Source: Psychroserpens sp. NJDZ02
GTDB lineage: Bacteria; Bacteroidota; Bacteroidia; Flavobacteriales; Flavobacteriaceae
Length of the DNA stretch: 64,000 nucleotides
Assembly: GCF_004843725.1 (NCBI RefSeq)
Contig: NZ_CP039451.1
Coordinates: forward strand, 3,788,001-3,852,000
Direction of reading: 5' to 3'
The translations under genes were made by a program, and so were the position numbers. Below are positions 51,932 to 63,911 of the stretch, in pieces. Each line of letters begins with the position of its first letter. Within the stretch, counting starts at the first letter, position 1. The notes under the pieces were generated by a model, which saw nothing but the letters and a program-made list of their open reading frames with translations, was not told the origin of the DNA and ran no database searches.

Positions 51932-52106
51932 TAAAACTATGCCAAAAACAGTAATTATCTTTGGGTAAATATACGTAGTTCTACGTATTGTATATGGAAT
52001 TTATAAAGTGTAGCTTCGCTAAACCAATTACAAACAGGTACTTAATTTATGGGTATCCCTTAATATTTACGGGGTATGTGGAATAAAAGTCTCCATATAA
52101 CGAGTT
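51932..52106 (+). repeat. Truncated copy (R1) of the 413-416 bp cassette-spacer repeat
   Basis: Only the right part of the repeat is present, from AAAACTATGCCAAAAACAG to TATAACGAGTT. It corresponds to the last 175 bases of complete copies and marks the left edge of the array. A weak hairpin (AGGGCT…AGCCCT, 51890-51918) precedes it. Confidence 0.8.
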
Positions 52107-52662
52107 GTGCCACATTTTAGAAACCAAACTAAAAACAAAAAATATGTGGGTTAAAGCCTATATTAAATATAAAACGAACGATTTAACTGAATGTGATTTA
52201 CTCTTTAAACATGGTAAAATCCAAGAAGTAAATATGGAATTTTTTAAAAATATAAAAGCTTTTCAAAACAATTCCGAATTAGCAGATAATATTGAAATAT
52301 TGAAAACATACAATCCAGATGCTACAAATAATTTCTGTAAATATTTCATAAAAAAATCAATCGCGAAAGAAGTTCATTTAATGTATTTGGATTTAACTTA
52401 TTTTAGATATTTAAAATTACAATGGCAACTAAAATATTTTTTAATACAATCACGTGACTTTAAAATGTCAATTCTTAAATATCTAGCAATAGCCTTATTA
52501 GGTTTTATTGGCGGATTTATATTTCAAAAAAACAAAGTTGAAGACAAAGTTCCGAATAATAGTGACAGAATTGAATTAACAAAATCTACTGATTCAATAA
52601 TTGCTGATAAAAAAACGGATACTTTAAAATGATATTTAACGGAATTAAAAACGTGGCACAAC
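52104..52662. mobile_element. Cassette 1, bounded by matched 10-bp inverted ends
   Basis: Left end GTTGTGCCAC (52104-52113) and right end GTGGCACAAC (52653-52662) are perfect reverse complements. The left GTT belongs to repeat R1 and the right AAC to repeat R2, while the seven bases between are unique to this cassette. It carries one small gene. Confidence 0.7.
52144..52632 (+). CDS. Cassette gene 1: hypothetical protein with C-terminal membrane helix
   Basis: About 162 residues from the ATG at 52144; upstream in-frame codons fall inside the cassette boundary and are unlikely to be coding. The N-terminal soluble part (YIKYKTNDLTECDLLFKHG) is followed by a helix near residue 115-135 (ILKYLAIALLGFIGGFIF) and a charged tail. 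I do not recognise the family. The C-terminal anchor suggests a membrane-associated role. Confidence 0.55.
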   Translation: MWVKAYIKYKTNDLTECDLLFKHGKIQEVNMEFFKNIKAFQNNSELADNIEILKTYNPDATNNFCKYFIKKSIAKEVHLMYLDLTYFRYLKLQWQLKYFLIQSRDFKMSILKYLAIALLGFIGGFIFQKNKVEDKVPNNSDRIELTKSTDSIIADKKTDTLK

Positions 52663-53073
52663 AAAGTACTGTGTTAAAAACAAGTGAAATCTCATTAATT
52701 TTTCACGAACGTACTTTTATATTCTTTATCAAATATTAACCCTGATTTAGCAATGGCAAAGGCTTGTTTTAATAAACAAACTTTTAGAAATTACGCTTAT
52801 AAGCACGAAAATGATTTAAAAGGAAACTCATTAATTTTATATTTAATAGAAAAAGATAAATTCATTAAAATGGATTGTTTGATAATAAAACTATGCTAAA
52901 AACAGTAATTATCATTGGGTAAATAATTAGTATAAATATACGTAGTTCTACGTATTGTATATCGTATTTATAAAGTGTAGCTTCGCTAAACAAATTAACA
53001 CCAGGAACTAAAGTTGCGGATGTCCCATAATATTTACGGGATATTTGGAACAAAAGTCTTTATATAACGAGTT
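52660..53073 (+). repeat. Complete cassette-spacer repeat R2 (414 bp)
   Basis: It runs from AACAAAGTACTGTG to TATATAACGAGTT. It holds a decayed short reading frame (PDLAMAKACFNKQTFRNYAY…LILYLIEKDKF), an inverted repeat TACGTAG-TT-CTACGTA near 52936-52955, and a late ATGTCCC…GGGATAT hairpin. Copies R3, R4 and R5 have the same layout. Confidence 0.85.
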
Positions 53074-54185
53074 GTAGCCACAATAAAAAAAACACTATGG
53101 GAACTTATAGCCGAATGGCAGATGAAATAGAAGAATTTGATCATATGTTAGATTTTTTTAAGGAAGTATATAGTAACACTAATATTATCAAAAAAAATAA
53201 ATTTCTTAAAATTATACAATTCTTGTATAATTTCAGCAGCCTAGGACAAATTAACGAAGCTAGTTATATAAAAAACAGATTACTTCCTGAATATAAAAGA
53301 TTACAATCTTTAACACAAATTAGCAATAATGATTTAGCAGAGTCAAACGATATGCTAAAGCAACTTTATGAAAAATTAAGTTCAAGTAGTTTGTTAGAAA
53401 CTAAACATTATTCAAATTCTGAGAAATACTATAACAATAGAATTGTAGAGTTAGAAAAAAGAGAACTCGAATTAAAAAACATTCTTGCACACAATCAAAA
53501 CGCAAATAAAGAACAAAAAAAAGTCTCTGAAGAAACTAAGAAAAAGCTTTCAGGTATTGAGAATGAATTAAACCAGAAAAAAAGGGAATTAGAAATAAAA
53601 CAAAAGCAAGAAGATGCAAAAAGTGACTGGGAACAAAAAATAAATGATACATTCACACAACTTAAAGATTACTTAAAACCTATAAAGCAAGAACATAATA
53701 GATTAAATGTATTGTACTATGTCTTTGCTGGCCTTTCAATTATAACAGTAATTATCATTTCTACAATCGAAATGAATGCTGTCTATAAATTAGCGTCTAA
53801 TAAAGATTTTCCAAACTTCGAACAATATTTAATGCTTTTCTTACCATTACCAATTGCAGGTGCTTTAATGTGGGGATTTGTTTTTCAAATGAACAGAGCA
53901 CAAAGACAACTCATCGCTATTTCTAATAATATTCACAATATAAATTATATACAAGGTCTATTAATTTCAATAAATAATTTATCCCCTAATATCAATGATG
54001 GCATATTAAGAATTAATAACGCACTTGATAAAATAATATCTAATCACCTAAAAAATAAACCAATAATTTCTGAGTCAGAACTTTTAAAAGAGGAAAATAA
54101 AGATAAAAACAGTACTGTTGATTTAGATAAATTATTGAAACTCATTAAAACCGTAAAGGAGTCAGTATAATAAATACTGTGGCTA
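53071..54185. mobile_element. Cassette 2, inverted ends interrupted by a group II intron fragment
   Basis: The left end GTTGTAGCCAC (53071-53081) is matched by GTGGCTA (54179-54185) on the right. The remaining CAAC expected on the right is missing because a group II intron remnant begins at 54186. It carries one gene. Confidence 0.65.
53097..54170 (+). CDS. Cassette gene 2: coiled-coil membrane protein
   Basis: 357 residues. A helical N-terminal part (about 1-100) precedes a long coiled coil (VELEKRELELKNILAHNQN to IKQKQEDAKSDWE). Two membrane helices follow near 200-225 (VLYYVFAGLSIITVIIISTI) and 240-262 (LMLFLPLPIAGALMWGFVF), and a cytoplasmic helical end. There is no signal peptide. I do not recognise the family; the layout recalls membrane-bound coiled-coil proteins seen in phage-defence sets, but there is no catalytic domain to support that. 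Confidence 0.6.
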   Translation: MGTYSRMADEIEEFDHMLDFFKEVYSNTNIIKKNKFLKIIQFLYNFSSLGQINEASYIKNRLLPEYKRLQSLTQISNNDLAESNDMLKQLYEKLSSSSLLETKHYSNSEKYYNNRIVELEKRELELKNILAHNQNANKEQKKVSEETKKKLSGIENELNQKKRELEIKQKQEDAKSDWEQKINDTFTQLKDYLKPIKQEHNRLNVLYYVFAGLSIITVIIISTIEMNAVYKLASNKDFPNFEQYLMLFLPLPIAGALMWGFVFQMNRAQRQLIAISNNIHNINYIQGLLISINNLSPNINDGILRINNALDKIISNHLKNKPIISESELLKEENKDKNSTVDLDKLLKLIKTVKESV

Positions 54186-54384
54186 ATCGAGTAGACGGCT
54201 CCGACTAAAATAGCCGGAGTGCGCTCTCACACCACCGCACGTACGTAACTGCGTTTGTCCTTTCGTCTCTATTGCGACCAACAATAGCACTCAGGAACGT
54301 ATACGGCGGTTCACCAAATTGAAGTTTGCCTATTATTAATATAATCTAACAAAGGCTTATACCCTTTTCGTTTAAGCCGTATAT
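54186..54384 (-). mobile_element. 5'-truncated group II intron remnant (199 bp)
   Basis: On the minus strand it ends with the D6-like CGGAGCCGTCTACTCGAT and shows D5-type arms GAACCGCCGTATACG and CGTACGTGCGGTGGTG. Between these arms lies an expanded loop of about 55 bases with its own hairpin (CTATTG…CAATAG) rather than a tetraloop. Upstream of D5 the bases read LLDYINNRQTSIW then stop, perhaps the end of the lost intron-encoded protein. The copy at 63582-63780 has the same length and layout. Confidence 0.65.
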
Positions 54385-54495
54385 AATTAATTGCTAGTTT
54401 TTTAGCTTGCTTACGAAAATTGTTCTGAATGTTCTATTTGTTTTTTATTTGCTAAATTAGTTACTTATACACGACACTAATCATATACAAACACA

Positions 54496-55349
54496 GTTAG
54501 TAACAAAACAAATGAAAAACCAAATTACATTAATAATATCTATCTTTTTGACAATGAATGCTTTCTGTCAAACTGATGCACCTAAATCTATTTTGGTTAC
54601 TAAATTTTATAGTTTTGAGACACTTGCTTTAGTTGTAAGATTTGACAAAGGAATAGATTCTATAAATTTCCCAATTGATACAAATCTGATTAAATCCAAA
54701 AACAAAACATTGGATATTAATGGTCAAAATTTATCTCCAAAAAAAATATATTATGACTATCGATTTACTGCAAAAATTGATACAACTTACAAATTACCTT
54801 CAGCAAAACTTTGGTCAAATAATAAATCTTACGAAATTCCAATAGACGAATATGTGATTCTTAAAAAACCTGTCAAACTCTCTAAACTTGATTCCCTAAA
54901 ATTGGCTGATGAACAAGAAGTTGATAGAATAGACAAATATAAAGCTGCTGCAAAAGAAAGACTTGAAGGGGAAATTGCATCTCGAATTTCAAAGAATATA
55001 AATGATAGAGCTTTATTACTTTGGACAGATAAAAATATTTTTAAAATAAATGACCGTTTTAAGATTGTTATTGAAAGCAATATGAATTTTGACAAAACAA
55101 GTATTTCAATGGAGTTTATAGAGAATTTAAGTGAGAAATTTAATGTAGAAAAAGCAGGGATTTCGACACTTTATGAGAATGGATTTGAATATCATTACAT
55201 ATATTTTATTTGCAAAGCTTCAGCAACTGGAAAAATAAATATTGAACCTTTAGAAATTAAAATTGAAAAGAAAAAGATAAAAACCAACGAATTGAATTTT
55301 GAGATAATTGATTGACCTAAGTAATAGTAATAAAAGCCCAGTTACCAAC
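54496..55349. mobile_element. Cassette 3, near-matched inverted ends
   Basis: Left GTTAGTAAC (54496-54504) and right GTTACCAAC (55341-55349) agree in eight of nine bases as reverse complements. The left flank is not the 414-bp repeat but a different sequence following the intron remnant; the right flank is repeat R3. Confidence 0.5.
54512..55315 (+). CDS. Cassette gene 3: secreted protein, BatD-like beta domain
   Basis: 267 residues with a signal peptide (ITLIISIFLTMNAFCQ). The first half is strand-rich; a charged helix (DEQEVDRIDKYKAAAKERL) leads to a C-terminal domain (ALLLWTDKNIFKINDRFKIV…ASATGKINIEPLEIKI) with the T-D-K-x-x-F-x-x-G/N-D-x-F-x-I-x-I-E pattern of BatD-type Ig-like domains. 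In BatD the domain is repeated and the protein membrane-anchored; here it appears once with no anchor. Function unknown. Confidence 0.55.
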   Translation: MKNQITLIISIFLTMNAFCQTDAPKSILVTKFYSFETLALVVRFDKGIDSINFPIDTNLIKSKNKTLDINGQNLSPKKIYYDYRFTAKIDTTYKLPSAKLWSNNKSYEIPIDEYVILKKPVKLSKLDSLKLADEQEVDRIDKYKAAAKERLEGEIASRISKNINDRALLLWTDKNIFKINDRFKIVIESNMNFDKTSISMEFIENLSEKFNVEKAGISTLYENGFEYHYIYFICKASATGKINIEPLEIKIEKKKIKTNELNFEIID

Positions 55350-55759
55350 AAAGTACTGTGTTAAATACAAGTAAAATCGCATTAATTTTTCACTAACGTC
55401 CTTTTATATTCTTTATCAAATATTAATCCTGATTTGGCAATAGTAAAGGCTTATTTTAATAAACAAACTCTTAGAAATCAAGATTATAAACACGGAAATG
55501 ATTTAAAAGGACGCTCACTGATTTTATATTTAATAGAAAAAGATAAATTCATTAAAATGGATTGTTTGATAATAAAACTATGCTAAAAACAGTAATTATC
55601 TTTGGGTAAATTTTAGTGTAAATATAAGTAGTTCTAAGTATTGTATATCGTATTTATAAAGTGTAGCTTCGCTTAACCAATTACAAACAGGAACTTAAGT
55701 CACGGATATCCCTTAATATTTACGGGATATTTGGAACAAAAGTCTTTATATAACGAGTT
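55347..55759 (+). repeat. Complete cassette-spacer repeat R3 (413 bp)
   Basis: Same start and end as R2. Its inner reading frame (PDLAIVKAYFNKQTLRNQDY) shifts near the AAATTCATTAAAATGG tract and ends early, as in R2. The late palindrome is ATATCCC…GGGATAT. Confidence 0.85.
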
Positions 55760-56836
55760 GTAACACATTCTGAAACTAAAAGAATAACAAAAGTAGTAGC
55801 TTTTGAAATTTGATGTTGAAGAACTAAAAAAAATATAAAAAACCACAAGTTTCTTCTCAAACAAAAAAGTGAACCTAAATGATATCAAAAATTAATAAAT
55901 TCTTATTTTATACTTTAGATAATGCTAATTTAATTCAACATATTGGAGAATCAAGAGAAAAATGTATTGATTCCCAATTGGACGAAAATGAAAATAGAAA
56001 ATTCGAAAAAAAAACACAAGCTTTATTCGATTTAATTAATTTCGATTTTCAACTAGAAGAATATGGTAAAGCAAATTGGTTTATTGAAAGCTCATATGAA
56101 GACTGTGATATGGAAAACCTAAAAAGCTATCTATTATCAATCAATCAAACTGAAACGGTTAATTCTATAACATCATTTTACAAATTCTATAAAAAAAACA
56201 TTAAAGATTTTGAATATTTAAAACCTTATCCAAAAGACTTTGAGAAGAAATTCGATGAATTAACAAGTAAAATGGAAAGTGAAGGTATTATAATTTGTAA
56301 ACTAAATGAAAGCATTGATGTAGTTGCAGATACTATTAGACGAAACCCTAATAATTATTGTAGAGATGAAAATGGGCAATATTTAGAGCGTTTTTTTAAT
56401 GGGTTTTTAGGTTATAAAGCAAATAATGGGAATCTTTTCAAGGAATATAATTTTTTCTTGGGTAAACCACATGGATTATGTCTAGATTATGATATACATA
56501 CTCAGAATAAAAAAAAACTTAGTGTATTTAATAAAGGTGAATTAGTAATAACCTTAAAACAATGGGATTATGATGGTGCTCTTAAATATGAACGAACATT
56601 TGACAATGAAAAAATTTGGAATAAAGGTAATATCTCTATTGTTAAAGATTTTAGAAACGATTTAATGACTAATTATTATGACAACGGTAATAAAAGATAT
56701 GAGGCAACTAACTTACATGATACAAATAAAATACTTAGAAAATGGGACGAAAACGGTAACATGATTGATTAGATCCTATTATTTAAGTTTCTATCGATTT
56801 AAAATCTATTTACATTTAATAATAACGTGTTACAAC
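55757..56836. mobile_element. Cassette 4, bounded by matched 10-bp inverted ends
   Basis: Left GTTGTAACAC (55757-55766) and right GTGTTACAAC (56827-56836) are perfect reverse complements. R3 is on the left and R4 on the right. One gene inside. Confidence 0.72.
55879..56772 (+). CDS. Cassette gene 4: hypothetical protein with MORN-like C-terminus
   Basis: 297 residues without signal peptide. The N-terminal 180 residues are helical and acidic with no known motif. From about residue 195 the pattern FNGFLGYKANNGNLFKEYNF…VITLKQWDYDGALKYER…YYDNGNKRYEATNL…WDENGNMID is the G-x-x-x-x-x-W/Y-x-x-NG/DG-x-x-x-x-x periodicity of MORN-like repeats often found in toxin-immunity and bacterial surface contexts. 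Function not known. Confidence 0.55.
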   Translation: MISKINKFLFYTLDNANLIQHIGESREKCIDSQLDENENRKFEKKTQALFDLINFDFQLEEYGKANWFIESSYEDCDMENLKSYLLSINQTETVNSITSFYKFYKKNIKDFEYLKPYPKDFEKKFDELTSKMESEGIIICKLNESIDVVADTIRRNPNNYCRDENGQYLERFFNGFLGYKANNGNLFKEYNFFLGKPHGLCLDYDIHTQNKKKLSVFNKGELVITLKQWDYDGALKYERTFDNEKIWNKGNISIVKDFRNDLMTNYYDNGNKRYEATNLHDTNKILRKWDENGNMID

Positions 56837-57248
56837 AAAGTACTGTGCTAAAAACAAGTAAAATCGCATTAATTTTTCACTAACGTGCTTTTATATTCTT
56901 TATCCAATATTAACCCTGATTTAGCAATAGCAAAGGCTTGTTTTAATAAACAAACTTTTAGAAATTACGCTTATAACTACGGAAATGATTTAAAAGGAAG
57001 CTCACTGATTTTATATTTAATAGAAAAAGATAAATTCATGAAAAATGGATTGTTTGATAATAAAACTATGACAAAAACAGTAATTATCTTTGGGTAAATA
57101 ATTAGTATGAATATACGTAGTTCTACGCATTGTATATCGTATTTATAAAGTTTAGCTTCGCTTAACCAATTACAAACAGGAACTTAAGTTAGGGATATCC
57201 CTTAATATTTACGGGATATGTGTATTAAAAGTGTTTATATAACATGTT
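56834..57248 (+). repeat. Complete cassette-spacer repeat R4 (415 bp)
   Basis: Same layout as R2. Its short inner frame is intact from GTG at 56885 to TAA at 57095-57097 (70 codons, with SNINPDLAIAKACFNKQT). The right end reads AACATGTT rather than AACGAGTT. Confidence 0.85.
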
Positions 57249-57674
57249 GGCGACAAGCAGAAAAATGAAATCGAAACTCTTATCAATATTCATAATAATT
57301 CAATTTCTTTCTTGTAAAACCGAAAGAAAAATGATTTTTTCAGATTTTGTAGAGGTAGAAAAAATTGAAAAAGTAATAATGAGTAATAACTCTGGGGAAT
57401 TCATATTATCAACTGAGCAACTTACAAAATTCAAAAGACAGATTTCCTCATTAATCTATGAACCTGATATTACGGTGAAATTAGGAGCAATACATATGAC
57501 CTTGATTATTGACAATAAAAAATATGATATAGCAACTGCAACACATGGAGATTTTGTTGAGATTGATTATGATTTAGTAACTAAAAATAAATCGGAATTT
57601 AGTAATGTTTTCTTTAAAACTAACGGAATAAATTTTGACAATTATAAAAAAACGGAATAAAACCAGTTACCAAC
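57246..57674. mobile_element. Cassette 5, partly matched inverted ends
   Basis: Left GTTGGCGAC (57246-57254) and right GTTACCAAC (57666-57674) agree in seven of nine bases as reverse complements. The right end is identical to that of cassette 3. One small gene inside. Confidence 0.5.
57265..57660 (+). CDS. Cassette gene 5: small lipoprotein
   Basis: About 131 residues from ATG 57265; an in-frame ATG at 57244 overlaps the cassette boundary and is unlikely. A lipoprotein signal (KSKLLSIFIIIQFLSCKTE) precedes a single small domain (FVEVEKIEKVIMSNNSGEF…IHMTLIIDNKKYDIATAT) with alternating strands. Family unknown. Confidence 0.6.
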   Translation: MKSKLLSIFIIIQFLSCKTERKMIFSDFVEVEKIEKVIMSNNSGEFILSTEQLTKFKRQISSLIYEPDITVKLGAIHMTLIIDNKKYDIATATHGDFVEIDYDLVTKNKSEFSNVFFKTNGINFDNYKKTE

Positions 57675-58087
57675 AAAGTACTCTGTTAAAAAACAAGTAA
57701 AATTTCATTAATTTTGCACTAACGTACTTTTATATTCTTTATCAAATATTAACCCTGATTTAGCAATAGCAAAGGCTTGTTTTAATAAACAAACTTTTAG
57801 AAATCAAGCTTATAAGCACAGAAATAATTTAAAAGGAAGCTCACTGATTATATATTTAATACAAAAAGATAAATTCATGAAAAATGGACTTTCTGATACT
57901 GCTACTACGCCAAAAACAGTAATTATCTTTGGGTAAATAATTAGTATAAATATACGTAGTTCTACGTATTGTATATCGTATTTACAAAGTGTAGCTTAGC
58001 TAAATAAATTAAAATCAATAACTTAAGCTGCGGATGTTCCATAATATTTTCGGGATATTTGGAACAAAAGTCTTTATATAACGAGTT
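57672..58087 (+). repeat. Complete cassette-spacer repeat R5 (416 bp)
   Basis: Same layout. The inner short frame is open to the same TAA (…TVIIFG stop) but begins at GTA, so it has no normal start. Its late hairpin is less perfect (ATGTTCC…GGGATAT). Confidence 0.85.
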
Positions 58088-59371
58088 CTACGCAATTTAA
58101 ACCAACAACAGTACAATTTATGAGAAACCTGATTTTAATGACATTAATCCTTCTGAATTTTTCTTGTGCCAATTCACAGGAAAACAAGATTGACCAGAAT
58201 AAAATAGAAGAAGATTTTGAGCAAATAATCTCAGATATTAAAAATAACTACATATATCTAAATGATAAAAAAGTAGATATTGATTGTATATATTCAAATT
58301 ATAAGCAAAAAATAAAACTTATAGATTCTGAAGACCAAAGACTATTATTCTTTGAATATTTACTCGATGAATTTTATGATAGTCACGTTATGTTAATGAG
58401 AGCAATTAGACCATCATATAGATTAGATTCACCAATTTTCACAGTTACAAACAATGGTAAGGCCAAAATAAAAAATGTATGGCAAACTCAAATTGAGAAT
58501 ATTGATTTAAATATTATAGGTTCAGAAGTTTTAAAAATTAATGGAATCGACCTAATCACTAAAATTGAAAAGTTCCCTACTATTTGCAATGATAAAAACG
58601 ATTTTGAAACAAGAAATTGGATTACAAATAAAATTATTGCCGGAAAATATAATGAACCAAGAGTTTTAACTCTTAAACTTTCTAATGGTAAAATTATAGA
58701 TTTTGATTTAGACAAAATAAAACTAAAAAAAAAAAGTAGCCTTTTGACTCTTTCAACAATTAATAATATTGGAATTATTAGGCTAAATAATTCGCTTGGG
58801 CAAAATGCCTTAATTGAAAAATTTGATTCTGCGATTGATCGTTTACAAAACACAAAAGGATTAATCATAGACTTGAGAAATACAACAGGAGGTGGAAATA
58901 GTTATGTTGCTAGAGGAATTATGAGTAGATTTATTAATGAAAGTATGCCATATCAATTACATCAAATTTTTGATGAAAGTTGGGACAATCAACCAATAAT
59001 AAAAAGGAGTTGGGCAGAACACGTAAGTCCAAGAAATAAGCAATATAAAAATCCAGTTGTTGTTCTTGTCGGAAAATGGACAGGAAGTATGGGAGAAGGT
59101 CTTGCAATTGGATTTGACGGATTAGGACGAGCGGAAATAGTTGGTACAGAAATGAAAAGACTTGCAGGAGGTTCAACAAACAATTTTCATCTTAAAAATG
59201 AGAATTTAGACTATAAACTAACCACTGAAAAATTATTTCACTTAAACGGAACACCAAGAGAAAAATATATTCCAGAAAATTATGTGAGTCAATCATCCAC
59301 TGAAAAAGATGAAACTTTAGAGAAAGGAATTGAATTGATTAACAAAATGACGGAATAAAACTGCGTAGAAC
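58085..59371. mobile_element. Cassette 6, bounded by matched 10-bp inverted ends
   Basis: Left GTTCTACGCA (58085-58094) and right TGCGTAGAAC (59362-59371) are perfect reverse complements. The left flank is R5; the right flank is unrelated to the repeat and leads into IS remnants, so the array is broken here. Confidence 0.7.
58120..59358 (+). CDS. Cassette gene 6: S41 family (C-terminal processing-like) peptidase, lipoprotein
   Basis: 412 residues with a lipoprotein signal (ILMTLILLNFSCANSQ). A helical N-terminal part is followed by a PDZ-like segment (IGSEVLKINGIDLI) and the S41 core: GLIIDLRNTTGGGNSYVARG, then VVVLVGKWTGSMGEGLAIGF with likely nucleophile Ser near residue 323, and GGSTNNFHL. 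S41 enzymes cleave peptides with a Ser/Lys dyad. The protein should act in the periplasm or outer membrane. It is larger than most cassette genes and looks intact. Confidence 0.8.
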   Translation: MRNLILMTLILLNFSCANSQENKIDQNKIEEDFEQIISDIKNNYIYLNDKKVDIDCIYSNYKQKIKLIDSEDQRLLFFEYLLDEFYDSHVMLMRAIRPSYRLDSPIFTVTNNGKAKIKNVWQTQIENIDLNIIGSEVLKINGIDLITKIEKFPTICNDKNDFETRNWITNKIIAGKYNEPRVLTLKLSNGKIIDFDLDKIKLKKKSSLLTLSTINNIGIIRLNNSLGQNALIEKFDSAIDRLQNTKGLIIDLRNTTGGGNSYVARGIMSRFINESMPYQLHQIFDESWDNQPIIKRSWAEHVSPRNKQYKNPVVVLVGKWTGSMGEGLAIGFDGLGRAEIVGTEMKRLAGGSTNNFHLKNENLDYKLTTEKLFHLNGTPREKYIPENYVSQSSTEKDETLEKGIELINKMTE

Positions 59372-59406
59372 ACCGGTAACCGTTGCACAACCCCTTAAAA
59401 AAGCAT

Positions 59407-59446
59407 AAAAACAGCTTAAAATCTTTGATTTTAAGCTGTTTTTAAT
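59407..59446. terminator. Strong hairpin terminator near the array break
   Basis: A 17-base perfect stem (arm AAAAACAGCTTAAAATC) around a TTT loop with flanking A and T tracts. It may belong to the IS1182-type remnant that lies just to its right on the minus strand. Confidence 0.75.
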
Positions 59447-59466
59447 TTTAATACGTCATTTTTTCT

Positions 59467-59736
59467 CTAAAATGCAAGTGGCTTAAAACATAGTATTCGA
59501 AGGCTTATTAGGTGGTTTTTGATGCTTTTAATAAAAGCAAGTAGTCCCGCTATACTTTCTGGCCCGTTTTTAATATATTTTAAATACTTTTTAAGATTAT
59601 AGGTTGTTGCGGATAGATGCATACATTTATTAGCTTGTTTAATCCCAAGGGTATTTACCTTACTCATGCCTAAAAAATGGGTTAGTGTACCAAATACAGG
59701 GGCTATCTGCTTTGTCGTTTTCCTTTCATATAGCTC
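59467..59736 (-). pseudogene. Remnant of an IS1182-type transposase (C-terminus)
   Basis: The minus strand reads TKQIAPVFGTLTHFLGMSKV, then TLGIKQANKCMHLSATTYNLKKYLKY, matching the conserved end of IS1182-family DDE transposases. Only about the last 90 codons remain. The left flank holds a strong hairpin; the right side is cut by an IS3-type remnant on the other strand. Confidence 0.7.
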
Positions 59737-59747
59737 CCTTTTTTGCT

Positions 59748-59971
59748 AATTGGTCGTCTCCTTTTTCCGAACAAAATATTTGTTACGAAAATGCGATGGC
59801 GGAACGTGTAAACGGAATTTTAAAAGATGAATTTTATCACGACCAAACCTTTGATAATGTGGCTCACGCTAAGAGAGCTGCAAAAAAATACAATTAATTG
59901 ATACAACGAAGTAAGATTACACTTATCTTTAGATTATAAAACACCAAATATGTTATATAAATTATCAGTTT
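59748..59971 (+). pseudogene. Remnant of an IS3-type transposase OrfB (C-terminus, frameshifted)
   Basis: The frame reads YENAMAERVNGILKDEFYHD and QTFDNVAHAKRAAKKYN then stop; one frame over it resumes as YNEVRLHLSLDYKTPNMLYK. Both parts match the integrase-core end of IS3-family OrfB (the E of the DDE triad lies in AER). A small indel near 59885-59900 separates the parts. No terminal repeats are visible. Confidence 0.7.
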
Positions 59972-60029
59972 AATTCAATTTTAACCTGTAGCCATATTTC
60001 AGGACAAGACATTAAAGAAAGCTGTCAAT

Positions 60030-61694: not shown

Positions 61695-62149
61695 TTATGA
61701 AAATTACAACTTTTTTAATAGCAATTTTTATTTATCAGTTTTCTTATTCACAAGCATGTGGTGGTGGAGAATTAACATTAGAATTTTACACTAAAAACAA
61801 TCAACAATTAAAATATGAAATTAAAGAAGTAGAAATTATAGACGATGATTTGTTAAAAAACACAAACGTAGGAATAAAAATAGATTCTACTAACATGAAA
61901 GGCATTAAAGAATTAAAATTCGATAAAAATAAATTACCTGGATTTATTTCTCAGTCGATAAATTGCAATAATCATATAGTTGATAATCAACTAAAGTTTA
62001 AGACTCTTGAACTATTTAATAAAGTTTTCTTACTAAGGGTATGGAGTGAAAAGGAAGAAGTGAAAATCCTTATTGAATTATTTGGTGGGTGTAATAGAAA
62101 AAAAATAATTGTTATGTCAAAAGAACCTATGCTAATCCATAAAGACTAA
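61691..62149 (+). CDS. Secreted hypothetical protein, candidate immunity partner
   Basis: 152 residues; the start overlaps the preceding stop (ATGA), with a second in-frame ATG six bases on. A signal peptide (ITTFLIAIFIYQFSYSQ) leads to a small domain with ACGGGELTLEFYTKNNQQ and paired Cys residues (SINCNNH, FGGCNRKK). Coupling to the PCP-like gene and periplasmic location fit an immunity protein against an effector delivered to the periplasm, but no family is recognised. Confidence 0.5.
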   Translation: MIMKITTFLIAIFIYQFSYSQACGGGELTLEFYTKNNQQLKYEIKEVEIIDDDLLKNTNVGIKIDSTNMKGIKELKFDKNKLPGFISQSINCNNHIVDNQLKFKTLELFNKVFLLRVWSEKEEVKILIELFGGCNRKKIIVMSKEPMLIHKD

Positions 62150-62166
62150 ATAAATAACGTTTTACA

Positions 62167-62789
62167 ATCGAGTAGACGGCTCCGACTAAAATAGCCGGAG
62201 TGCGCCTCTCACACCACCGCACGTACGGGTCTCGTATACGGCGGTTCGTAAATCATCACGCCAAAGCTCTTTTCACCCTTGACACTATCTCCTAATTTAG
62301 GCATAGGCTACCACTAGTGCTCCTATGCGAATTTTGAAGAGAATCACGTTCAGTCCTTCCTTACTTGTGAGACCTTCTGAGGTATTCCCTCAACTCGTTT
62401 CCTGTAAGTACTATGACCTCTGCTGACTTCTCCAAATAGTCAACTCGTAACTTTGGAGACCTCCCCAGGTAATGGCATCCTCTTTCACTCAATCACTGCC
62501 GTATCTACATAGTTACCCTTTTGTTACTGTTTGGGCGTTACAATGATGTGCTTGCTTACCCGAATAACTATGCCTCTGTATACGATTTCTGTTCGTCAGT
62601 ACCGAGTTTTGTTGTGGTATTTGCTCATTAATCAATCACAAATAGCCTTCAGATAAAACCTCACGGTTTTCACCCTTGCGACTTACTAATGCTTCAAGAC
62701 GTTACTCCTGCGCATAAGGGACTTGCACCCTCTAGATTAATTATCTACCTTTAGGTAAATAAAAAGATGCCCATGCTGGGCACACACAC
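62167..62789 (-). mobile_element. ORF-less group II intron, complete-looking (about 623 nt)
   Basis: Read on the minus strand it starts GTGTGTGTGCCCAGCATGG (a GUGYG-type 5' end), continues with GGGTGCAAGTCCCTTATGCG and GTCGCAAGGGTGAAAACCG as in bacterial group II D1, and ends with D5 (GAACCGCCGTATACGAG and CCGTACGTGCGGTGGTG) and D6 (CTCCGGCTATTTTAGTCGG, final CTACTCGAT, with the expected AY end). No reverse transcriptase frame is present in D4. Its 3' exon, TGTAAAACG, is the cassette-end type sequence, and its 5' exon has a stem-loop (GACTTTTG…CAAAAGTC) about 15-20 bases upstream. Mobility would need a protein supplied elsewhere. Confidence 0.72.
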
Positions 62790-62953
62790 TGTATAAAAAA
62801 CATAGGACTTTTGTCTTAACTCCAAAAGTCTGTGTTAATTTATGAAGTCCGTCAAATATAAAATTTGGCATTTTCAACAAAAAATATAAAAGCAAAATAT
62901 TATATTTGGCTAAGTGTCAAACCGAAACGATAGTGCTTATCAACTGCTCTACG

Positions 62954-62971
62954 TTTCTTATACTAAACGTT
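62954..62971 (+). repeat. Second type of cassette left border
   Basis: TTTCTTATACTAAACGTT precedes cassette 7; a near copy (TTCTTATACATAAACGTT) at 63877-63894 precedes the last gene. These end in GTT like the long repeats but belong to a different sequence class. Confidence 0.5.
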
Positions 62972-63011
62972 GTAAACAATTAAACCAATCAGAATCTGAA
63001 AATAGAACAAT

Positions 63012-63359
63012 ATGAAATTAGTAGGCTCGTACATTCAATATGGAGGAGGATTTAATAAGGATAATGTTGACAGAAAAGATATTTCTAATGCAATTGAATA
63101 CTTGAGAAAAACTGATGATGAACACGCTGATTTTTGGATTGGAGTTTATGGAGATAAATCTGAAGAAAAAGTTCTAGAAATTAATAAATGGTTTGAGACT
63201 TTTCTACATCTAAATGACAATAAAAACACGTTTTATGCAACTAAACTTAATGACTTTGAGCAAATAACAAATTTGTGTGAGCTTTTCGTTAACGGAAAAA
63301 TAGAAGAAGTTGAAAAAAAAATGATTGGATATAAATCTAAAATAACGCAAACTGACTAA
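63012..63359 (+). CDS. Cassette gene 7a: small acidic hypothetical protein
   Basis: 115 residues, no signal peptide; acidic and Lys-rich with an alpha/beta pattern (VGSYIQYGGGF…ADFWIGVYGDKSEEKVLEI…TFYATKLNDFEQITNL). It looks like a small immunity or accessory protein, but no family is recognised. It starts 41 bases inside the cassette's left end. Confidence 0.55.
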   Translation: MKLVGSYIQYGGGFNKDNVDRKDISNAIEYLRKTDDEHADFWIGVYGDKSEEKVLEINKWFETFLHLNDNKNTFYATKLNDFEQITNLCELFVNGKIEEVEKKMIGYKSKITQTD

Positions 63360-63413
63360 AAAGTAATTACGGAATGAAAATAATTGTTTCTAGCAAAAAA
63401 CTGATTGACAAAA

Positions 63414-63572
63414 ATGATTTTTACTAAAGAGTCGAAAGACGACGAACTATATGTGTATATGAATGGGAAGCTCGTTTATAAAAGATGGTTAAAAACTGGA
63501 CAATCAAAAGTTTTTGACTTAATGGCTTATGACAAATACACAGAGTATTCAATTAATGAAAACAAAAAATAA
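63414..63572 (+). CDS. Cassette gene 7b: 52-residue hypothetical protein, possibly frameshifted
   Basis: The frame MIFTKESKDDELYVYMNGKL continues to DKYTEYSINENKK and ends two bases before the cassette border. An upstream frame from ATG 63374 (MKIIVSSKKLIDKNDF) stops at the T5 tract near 63418; removing one T would join both into a single protein of about 65 residues. So this is either a short gene or one broken by a homopolymer indel. Confidence 0.4.
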   Translation: MIFTKESKDDELYVYMNGKLVYKRWLKTGQSKVFDLMAYDKYTEYSINENKK

Positions 63573-63581
63573 CTGTTTACA

Positions 63582-63780
63582 ATCGAGTAGACGGCTCCGA
63601 CTAAAATAGCCGGAGTGCGCCTCTCATGCCACCGCACGTACGTAACTACGTTGGTCCTTTCGCCCCTATTGCTACTAGCAATACAACTCAGGAACGTATA
63701 CGGCGGTTCACCAAATTGAAGTTTGCGTATTATTAATATAATCTAACAAAGGTTTATACCTTTTTCGTTGAAGCCGTATA
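63582..63780 (-). mobile_element. 5'-truncated group II intron remnant (199 bp), second copy
   Basis: Same length and order as the remnant at 54186-54384, ending CTACTCGAT at the cassette border. The expanded D5 loop differs in sequence but keeps its hairpin (TATTGCTA…TAGCAATA rather than CTATTG…CAATAG). The upstream tail reads LLDYINNTQTSIW then stop. Confidence 0.65.
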
Positions 63781-63911
63781 AAAATAATGCTTAGTTTAGT
63801 ACTTAATCAAGAGTTAGTGCATTTTTGCTACATCTGATTTTCCTGCGGAAAATCCTCGCATACAAACCCGCAACTATTCTTATACATAAACGTTAGGTAT
63901 AATTAAAAAAA

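Follow-up and report, generated by a model that had tools for sequence, protein, structure and literature searches.

The chromosome of Psychroserpens sp. NJDZ02 (Flavobacteriaceae), a single contig of 4,319,537 bp (NZ_CP039451.1), carries six head-to-tail gene cassettes on the forward strand within positions 3,788,001 to 3,852,000, the 64,000-bp stretch that we call the window (array at window positions 52104-59371; all coordinates outside the window are chromosomal). A preliminary description had recognized an integron-like layout here, with every cassette bounded by copies of one spacer. That spacer is present in four copies, measuring 407-410 bp between AAC and GTT and 413-416 bp with them included, and a partial copy begins at 51932. 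Spacers follow cassettes 1, 3, 4 and 5 as proposed; cassettes 2 and 3 are instead parted by a putative intron relic and an ordinary attC-like site of ~125 bp, with no ~410-bp spacer. The complementarity proposed for the two ends of each cassette is exact over 10 bp in cassettes 1, 4 and 6, and reaches only 8/10 in cassette 3 and 7/10 in cassette 5 (Table 1). Exact 10-bp complements 300-1500 bp apart number seven among the 1081 GTT positions of the window; these three cassettes are among them, and the remaining four pairs start GTTTT. No tyrosine recombinase matched within the window, in keeping with the first impression that no integrase is in view; a candidate is nonetheless encoded elsewhere in the chromosome, 2.6 Mb away. 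The array therefore falls under the definition of a cluster of attC sites lacking a nearby integron integrase (CALIN), with an attI-like head present. We consider it highly likely, on sequence grounds, that the array in the window belongs to an integron-like system found in Flavobacteriaceae, whose cassettes the distantly encoded tyrosine recombinase is predicted to move, likely in trans.

Cassette ends and attC-like sites

Elsewhere in this genome, sites of ~125 bp close the cassettes, and from six of these we built a covariance model, R1. It matched 73 times in the genome itself (E<=0.01), 146 times in 20 loci of relatives (E<=0.1) and 99 times in 29 further loci (E<=0.01). Neither two stretches of Escherichia coli DNA nor 20 short loci that surround true IntI genes gave a match to the model at E<=0.1. 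The loci came from 20 of the best 23 recombinase matches outside the NJDZ02 genome, from 12 intermediate and 8 distant matches picked by hand, and from 13 of 16 named loci. Every one of the 146 matches in the 20 relative loci, spread over 16 of them, keeps the direction of the recombinase gene.

The ends of these cassettes are specific to the cassette and paired within it. At least 6 of the 7 variable end bases matched in 120/146 cassettes of the 16 relative loci, compared with 2.8% for shuffled partners, which rules out a chance origin, and with 7/130 when the two sides of one site were compared. This is the complementarity of flanks in other arrays that the preliminary description had put forward as a check, and it supports the layout of cassette-specific split ends. 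Over all loci outside the NJDZ02 genome, 166/204 cassettes had matched ends by the same measure, and the pairing extends across 38 loci with 89 different left ends. Among matched cassettes, the longest open reading frame (ORF) lies on the array strand in 157/177 (median length 870 bp). In two relatives (loci L102 of G014 and L108 of G113), arrays hold 3-5 near-copies of one cassette, 74-99.8% identical, and in L108 the matched ends differ between some copies of one gene.

For folding, each site was rebuilt with its cassette's own left end, using the 177/263 cassettes in which at least 6 of 7 end bases matched (86/263 were dropped). The R boxes pair in the predicted bottom-strand hairpin in 174/177, a figure that is partly built in because the 177 were chosen for matched ends. 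The strand bias is independent of that choice: the bottom strand is predicted to be more stable than the top in 174/177 folds. A three-base, one-sided bulge follows the R stem in 112/177. The R' consensus of integron attC sites is stated as GTTRRRY in a passage of PMC7923331. As first noted for this array, the fit is poor: R' conforms in 18/263 and mostly reads GTT[GA][TGC][CGA]...

A tyrosine recombinase beside an attI-like site

Three tyrosine recombinases are encoded in the NJDZ02 genome, two of which group with E. coli XerC/XerD in our tree. The third, our candidate, is a 393-aa protein (1217661-1218842) whose stop codon lies 33 bp before an attI-like GTT (1218876), and a cassette array follows. 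The search for a tyrosine recombinase gene at an array end, suggested at the outset, thus found one. The first cassette behind it (1219050-1221767) encodes a BanI-type restriction-modification system and a control-protein-like helix-turn-helix gene. Six residues are invariant in all 51 aligned recombinases, and we take these, by known motifs, to be the putative catalytic set. The closest named record is from Olleya namhaensis (recombinase 92% identical).

The order of gene and site is conserved. A strict attI motif, TATAACnAGTT, sought within 260-300 bp of the recombinase stop, was present in 20/20 and 23/25 closer relatives (43/45, of which two loci, L154 and L161, are duplicates), where 0.039 occurrences would be expected per 260 bp; both misses read ATATAGC. 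An alignment of 43 attI rows, leaving aside the two duplicates and the distant loci L141-L148, has a TATnTTnG-like column consensus 22-15 bp upstream of GTT (23-38/43 rows per column), a candidate for a cassette promoter (Pc) when set against the Bacteroidota -7 consensus, and the relaxed rule used to place the rows set L106 at the wrong GTT. The attI-like element is also dispersed, with 46 matches in the NJDZ02 genome and 48 in G684, a related one-contig genome of the genus group, part of them short. In G684 the recombinase gene (contig C1, 1108098-1109274) is split in two frames, yet dozens of attI-like copies are present. A palindrome of the attI promoter block, ATACGTAGTTCTACGTATTG, also occurs in tandem with a period of ~140 bp (1082724-1083458 here; contig C1 1238920-1239916 in G684). 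In the distant clade L141-L148, 15/17 cassettes at four loci have matched ends. Four loci of this clade (L141, L145, L146 and L147) have a palindrome such as ATATAGATCATATGATCTATAT in the usual place of attI.

Cassette differences between genomes and distribution

Comparison with G684 revealed whole-cassette differences of the kind the preliminary description had asked for. The locus at 2532616 and its counterpart at 4010472 in G684 are 95% identical over 5.5 kb and 100% identical over the last 60 bp before GTT; identity then falls to 35%, and a different first cassette lies behind the shared GTT. At a second locus, 3552408, identity with G684 is 90% over the 1.5 kb that lead up to GTT. The head of the window array matches G684 at 84.6% over 1.4 kb, the match stopping 28 bp before GTT, and at 3244957 the match stops ~190 bp before GTT; at both, the first cassettes differ. 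Three cassettes are common to genomes at 89-92% DNA identity while the respective recombinases are 63%, 45% and 49% identical; only the third pair certainly represents two genera by label. The left borders of these shared cassettes fall at most 23 bp from GTT in 3/3, and the right borders at most 14 bp from the cassette end in 2/3, the third match stopping just inside attC.

Of 249 Flavobacteriaceae genomes, 197 had attC-like sites (E<=1e-4) and 142 had the recombinase (E<=1e-50). The two are associated: sites were found in 130/142 recombinase-positive and 67/107 recombinase-negative genomes (Fisher P 3e-8).

A probable composite spacer

We next consider the ~410-bp spacer, which the preliminary description had proposed as an undescribed, unusually long attC. 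One copy used as a query gave 32 matches in the NJDZ02 genome, mostly to one part alone. The left ~117 bp is solitary at five places and continues there into a remnant resembling a transposase; a reading frame that spans one such place gave a sub-threshold match to an IS110-type transposase (18.2 bits, cut-off 21.3) beside an equally weak, unrelated match. The right ~150 bp is solitary at many loci as the array head, directly preceding the first cassette. It ends in ATATAACnA followed by GTT, and its last ~85 bp resemble the end of the recombinase gene and its attI. Because the parts match separately across the genome, our preferred reading of the spacer is a fusion between a transposon-like end and an attI-like element.

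If the spacer were itself a giant, working site of attC type, this would account for its four near-identical copies, each lying between different genes, for the exact 10-bp matched ends of cassettes 1 and 4, each of which precedes a spacer, and for a related copy in G684 (87-89% identity to the window copies). We regard this as unlikely: in addition to the solitary occurrences of both parts and the IS110-type match, the four copies have no common fold and no match to R1, whose sites in this genome are mostly ~125 bp long. On the folds and the composite origin we reject a giant attC as the principal reading, and the earlier proposal of a long attC is not supported. Given the composite structure, the spacers are likely secondary, the attC bodies having been replaced by a transposon-like end plus an attI-like element; we propose that this replacement left cassettes with matched ends whose hairpin is lost.

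Relation of the recombinase to IntI and Xer

By curated scores the candidate recombinase falls short of the IntI and XerC/XerD families, and its relatives straddle the cut-off for XerA_Arch. Three members of its family scored 195.6-208.7 bits against the IntI model TIGR02249 (cut-off 265), and positions 178-238 of the model, where the additional domain of IntI lies, were unmatched. In alignment with IntI4 (2a3v), residues 279-296 of the NJDZ02 protein (18 aa) stand opposite residues 183-243 (61 aa), skipping ~43 residues, and 54 relatives align in 416 columns for 393 residues. An additional domain near patch III is called a defining feature of IntI in a passage of PMC9668308. The suspicion that a non-standard recombinase serves these arrays is thus supported by a candidate that adjoins an attI-like site and has no IntI-specific domain. 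Curated models of XerC/XerD, the recombinases of chromosome dimer resolution, gave 171 bits (cut-offs 335/330), and three members scored 203, 214 and 223 bits with the XerA_Arch model NF040815 (cut-off 220). A few homologs are labelled 'site-specific tyrosine recombinase/integron integrase' by NCBI, which is the family label of NF040815. A 74-row tree groups the recombinases as one clade (97/83) beside IntI (100/99), apart from four Xer rows; this placement as sister to IntI is provisional, since the Xer outgroup consists of those four rows on long branches.

Residues ~98-374 match archaeal Xer proteins and IntI4, both by sequence and in a fold search with the predicted structure. The N-terminal ~65 residues form a predicted extra domain, weakly HARP-like in 4/54 and DUF5710-like in 14/54 relatives (E<=0.5). 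A sequence search of this domain against the PDB returned only two matches at E about 1, which we take as chance, and the fold comparison barely covers it, because nearly all matches span only residues ~90-390.

Could the arrays instead be remnants of a classical integron, that is, CALINs made by a true IntI that is now elsewhere or lost? These arrays do resemble integrons in layout, attC hairpins and the pairing of ends, and other Bacteroidota families commonly have a true IntI: in a sample of the phylum, 105/395 genomes had a match over the TIGR02249 cut-off (108/395 at E<=1e-45), and all matches listed were in other families. A survey with IntegronFinder 2.0, in the passage of PMC9024848 used here, names one complete Bacteroidetes integron, that of Salinibacter ruber. 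With the same model at E<=1e-40, however, IntI was found in 0/299 Flavobacteriaceae genomes, which argues against a true IntI within the family as the operator. The recombinase that adjoins attI in 43/45 closer loci is not an IntI, and R' seldom fits GTTRRRY, as given above. A classical remnant is accordingly very improbable.

Group II introns, insertion sequences and other features of the window

Group II introns sit at the attC-like sites on the R'' side and opposite to the cassette direction. The Rfam model RF02001 matched 11 times in 78 kb (1216001-1236000 of this genome and loci L176, L180 and L031), and one of these introns has a reverse transcriptase/maturase gene. Group IIC-attC introns are described, in a passage of PMC7923331, as inserting at the R'' side of classical attC sites and opposing the cassettes. 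Because of their location at attC-like sites and against the cassette direction, the introns here seem to treat these sites as attC. The putative intron relic at 54186-54372 gave no Rfam match of its own.

An insertion-sequence (IS)-like sequence, GGTAACCGTTGCACAACCCCTT, recurs behind the AAC of cassette right ends (window 59372; 190827 and 2781411 in this genome; 4010472 and 3331844 in G684). Its position suggests an insertion sequence that targets cassette sites. The features of the window are collected in Table 1.

Table 1. Features of the cassette array and its downstream flank, in window coordinates
Feature	Position	Strand	Details
attI-like array head with upstream promoter-like block	51932-52103	+	51932-52101 matches spacer-query positions 234-416; ends ATATAACGA before GTT
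Cassette 1: 175-aa ORF, no Pfam family	52104-52662	+	ends GTTGTGCCAC (52104) / GTGGCACAAC (52653), 10/10
Composite spacer 1: putative transposon-like end (left ~117 bp) and attI-like element (right)	52663-53070	+	
Cassette 2: 357-aa ORF	53071-54185	+	left end GTTGTAGCCACA; right end ACTGTGGCTA, interrupted by putative intron relic
Putative intron relic in cassette 2 right end	54186-54372	-	repeats common to 62149-62227 and 63564-63797
attC-like site, ordinary ~125-bp type	54373-54497	+	R1, 58.8 bits
Cassette 3: 267-aa ORF, BatD-like domain	54496-55349	+	ends 54496/55340, 8/10
Composite spacer 2	55350-55756	+	copy of repeat, genome search with spacer
Cassette 4: 297-aa ORF, sub-cut-off MORN match	55757-56836	+	ends GTTGTAACAC, 55757/56827, 10/10
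Composite spacer 3	56837-57245	+	query copy for searches
Cassette 5: 138-aa ORF	57246-57674	+	ends 57246/57665, 7/10
Composite spacer 4	57675-58084	+	copy of repeat, genome search with spacer
Cassette 6: 412-aa ORF, peptidase S41 and Tricorn_C1	58085-59371	+	ends GTTCTACGCA (58085) / TGCGTAGAAC (59362), 10/10
Probable insertion-sequence remains after cassette 6 right end	59372-59990 (end approximate)	.	ACC followed by GGTAACCGTTGCACAACCCC...; putative IS
Group II intron D1-D4, opposing array direction	62473-62670	-	RF02001, 115 bits
attC-like site, weak	62785-62971	+	R1, 28.5 bits
Downstream cassette, 115-aa ORF (63012-63359)	62969-63769	+	right end unmatched, resembles other intron junctions
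attC-like site	63770-63894	+	R1, 99.8 bits

A model for cassette movement

The analysis establishes, at the level of sequence, the array layout, the pairing of ends, the predicted hairpins, the order of recombinase gene and attI, and the differing cassettes behind a shared attI. In the model that we derive from these, the attC-like site would fold on its bottom strand, pairing the R boxes and mostly leaving three bases unpaired on one side; the recombinase would bind this hairpin, and would insert and excise cassettes at its own attI-like site. Strand exchange would take place at G/TT of attI, in the GTT that follows ATATAACnA. The left and right ends of a cassette would match because both derive from one attC before insertion. 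The recombinase likely also serves, in trans, the dispersed copies of the attI-like element, among them the head of the window array, and a promoter in the attI block would read the cassette genes.

A dispersed repeat between genes (a transposon or miniature inverted-repeat transposable element), its matched ends due to coincidence or target-site effects, would agree with the dispersed spacer parts and with the insertion-sequence-like ends at these sites, yet it is hardly credible given ends that are cassette-specific but paired within the cassette, far above the shuffled rate, and a shared locus at which the cassette changes exactly from the GTT onward.

Several observations nevertheless weigh against an integron-like system moved by the candidate recombinase. 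Some R1 matches are weak, down to 25 bits. Within the NJDZ02 genome itself, only 11/59 cassettes bounded by two model matches have matched ends, and 36/59 right ends show another kind of junction, which we take for introns. The strict attI motif is present at 0/8 of the distant recombinase loci (35-39% identical). The predicted structure of the recombinase has a mean pLDDT of 80 and a pTM of 0.51, and its confidence is low near the Tyr supposed to be catalytic. There are 67 genomes that have attC-like matches with no recombinase at E<=1e-50, and 12 with the reverse; the 67 may hold more distant recombinases or orphan arrays. Finally, the four composite spacers between different cassettes are left without explanation by the present results.

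Beyond the system itself, we are inclined to propose a second integron lineage in Flavobacteriaceae, in which a family sister to IntI would recombine folded single-stranded attC without the additional domain, perhaps helped by its HARP-like N-terminus, with one enzyme serving dozens of dispersed attI in trans in Olleya. A full-text literature search by title and abstract start, with preprints and most subscription journals outside its scope, found no description of the system. If this interpretation is correct, most Flavobacteriaceae would harbour a large, mobile pool of cassettes overlooked by IntI-based searches, and the system would add a large pool for gene exchange in this family. Comparing integrons with a widespread relative that relies on a different recombinase would also separate the essential from the dispensable parts of recombination by hairpins. 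Since the hosts include several named strains, the origin of attC sites and of matched ends could be tested in a second lineage.

Comparison with known systems

Elements of the IS1111/IS110 group are known to target attC. Here, IS-like ends lie directly behind the ...AAC of cassette right ends, and the only link by sequence is the sub-threshold IS110-type match. The group II introns found here, which may be of class C, lie at the same kind of site, on the same strand and at the same R'' position as group IIC-attC introns. The archaeal XerA/XerC-like recombinases 4a8e and 5hxy are the best sequence and fold matches to residues ~98-374 of the recombinase; their chains, of 292 and 317 residues, do not have its predicted N-terminal extra domain. 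We know of no tie between these archaeal proteins and cassette arrays.

The closest likeness is to integrons (IntI-attI-attC), whether chromosomal or mobile. Shared with them are an integrase gene beside attI, an array in one direction whose cassettes are short and mostly hold a single gene, split R boxes, a bottom-strand hairpin and whole-cassette differences. Judged by these features the system is integron-like, yet it departs from the IntI type in two defining respects: the recombinase does not have the ~43 residues specific to IntI, and R' is not GTTRRRY. It also differs in that the recombinase gene reads towards attI, and in the many attI-like copies in both the NJDZ02 genome and G684.

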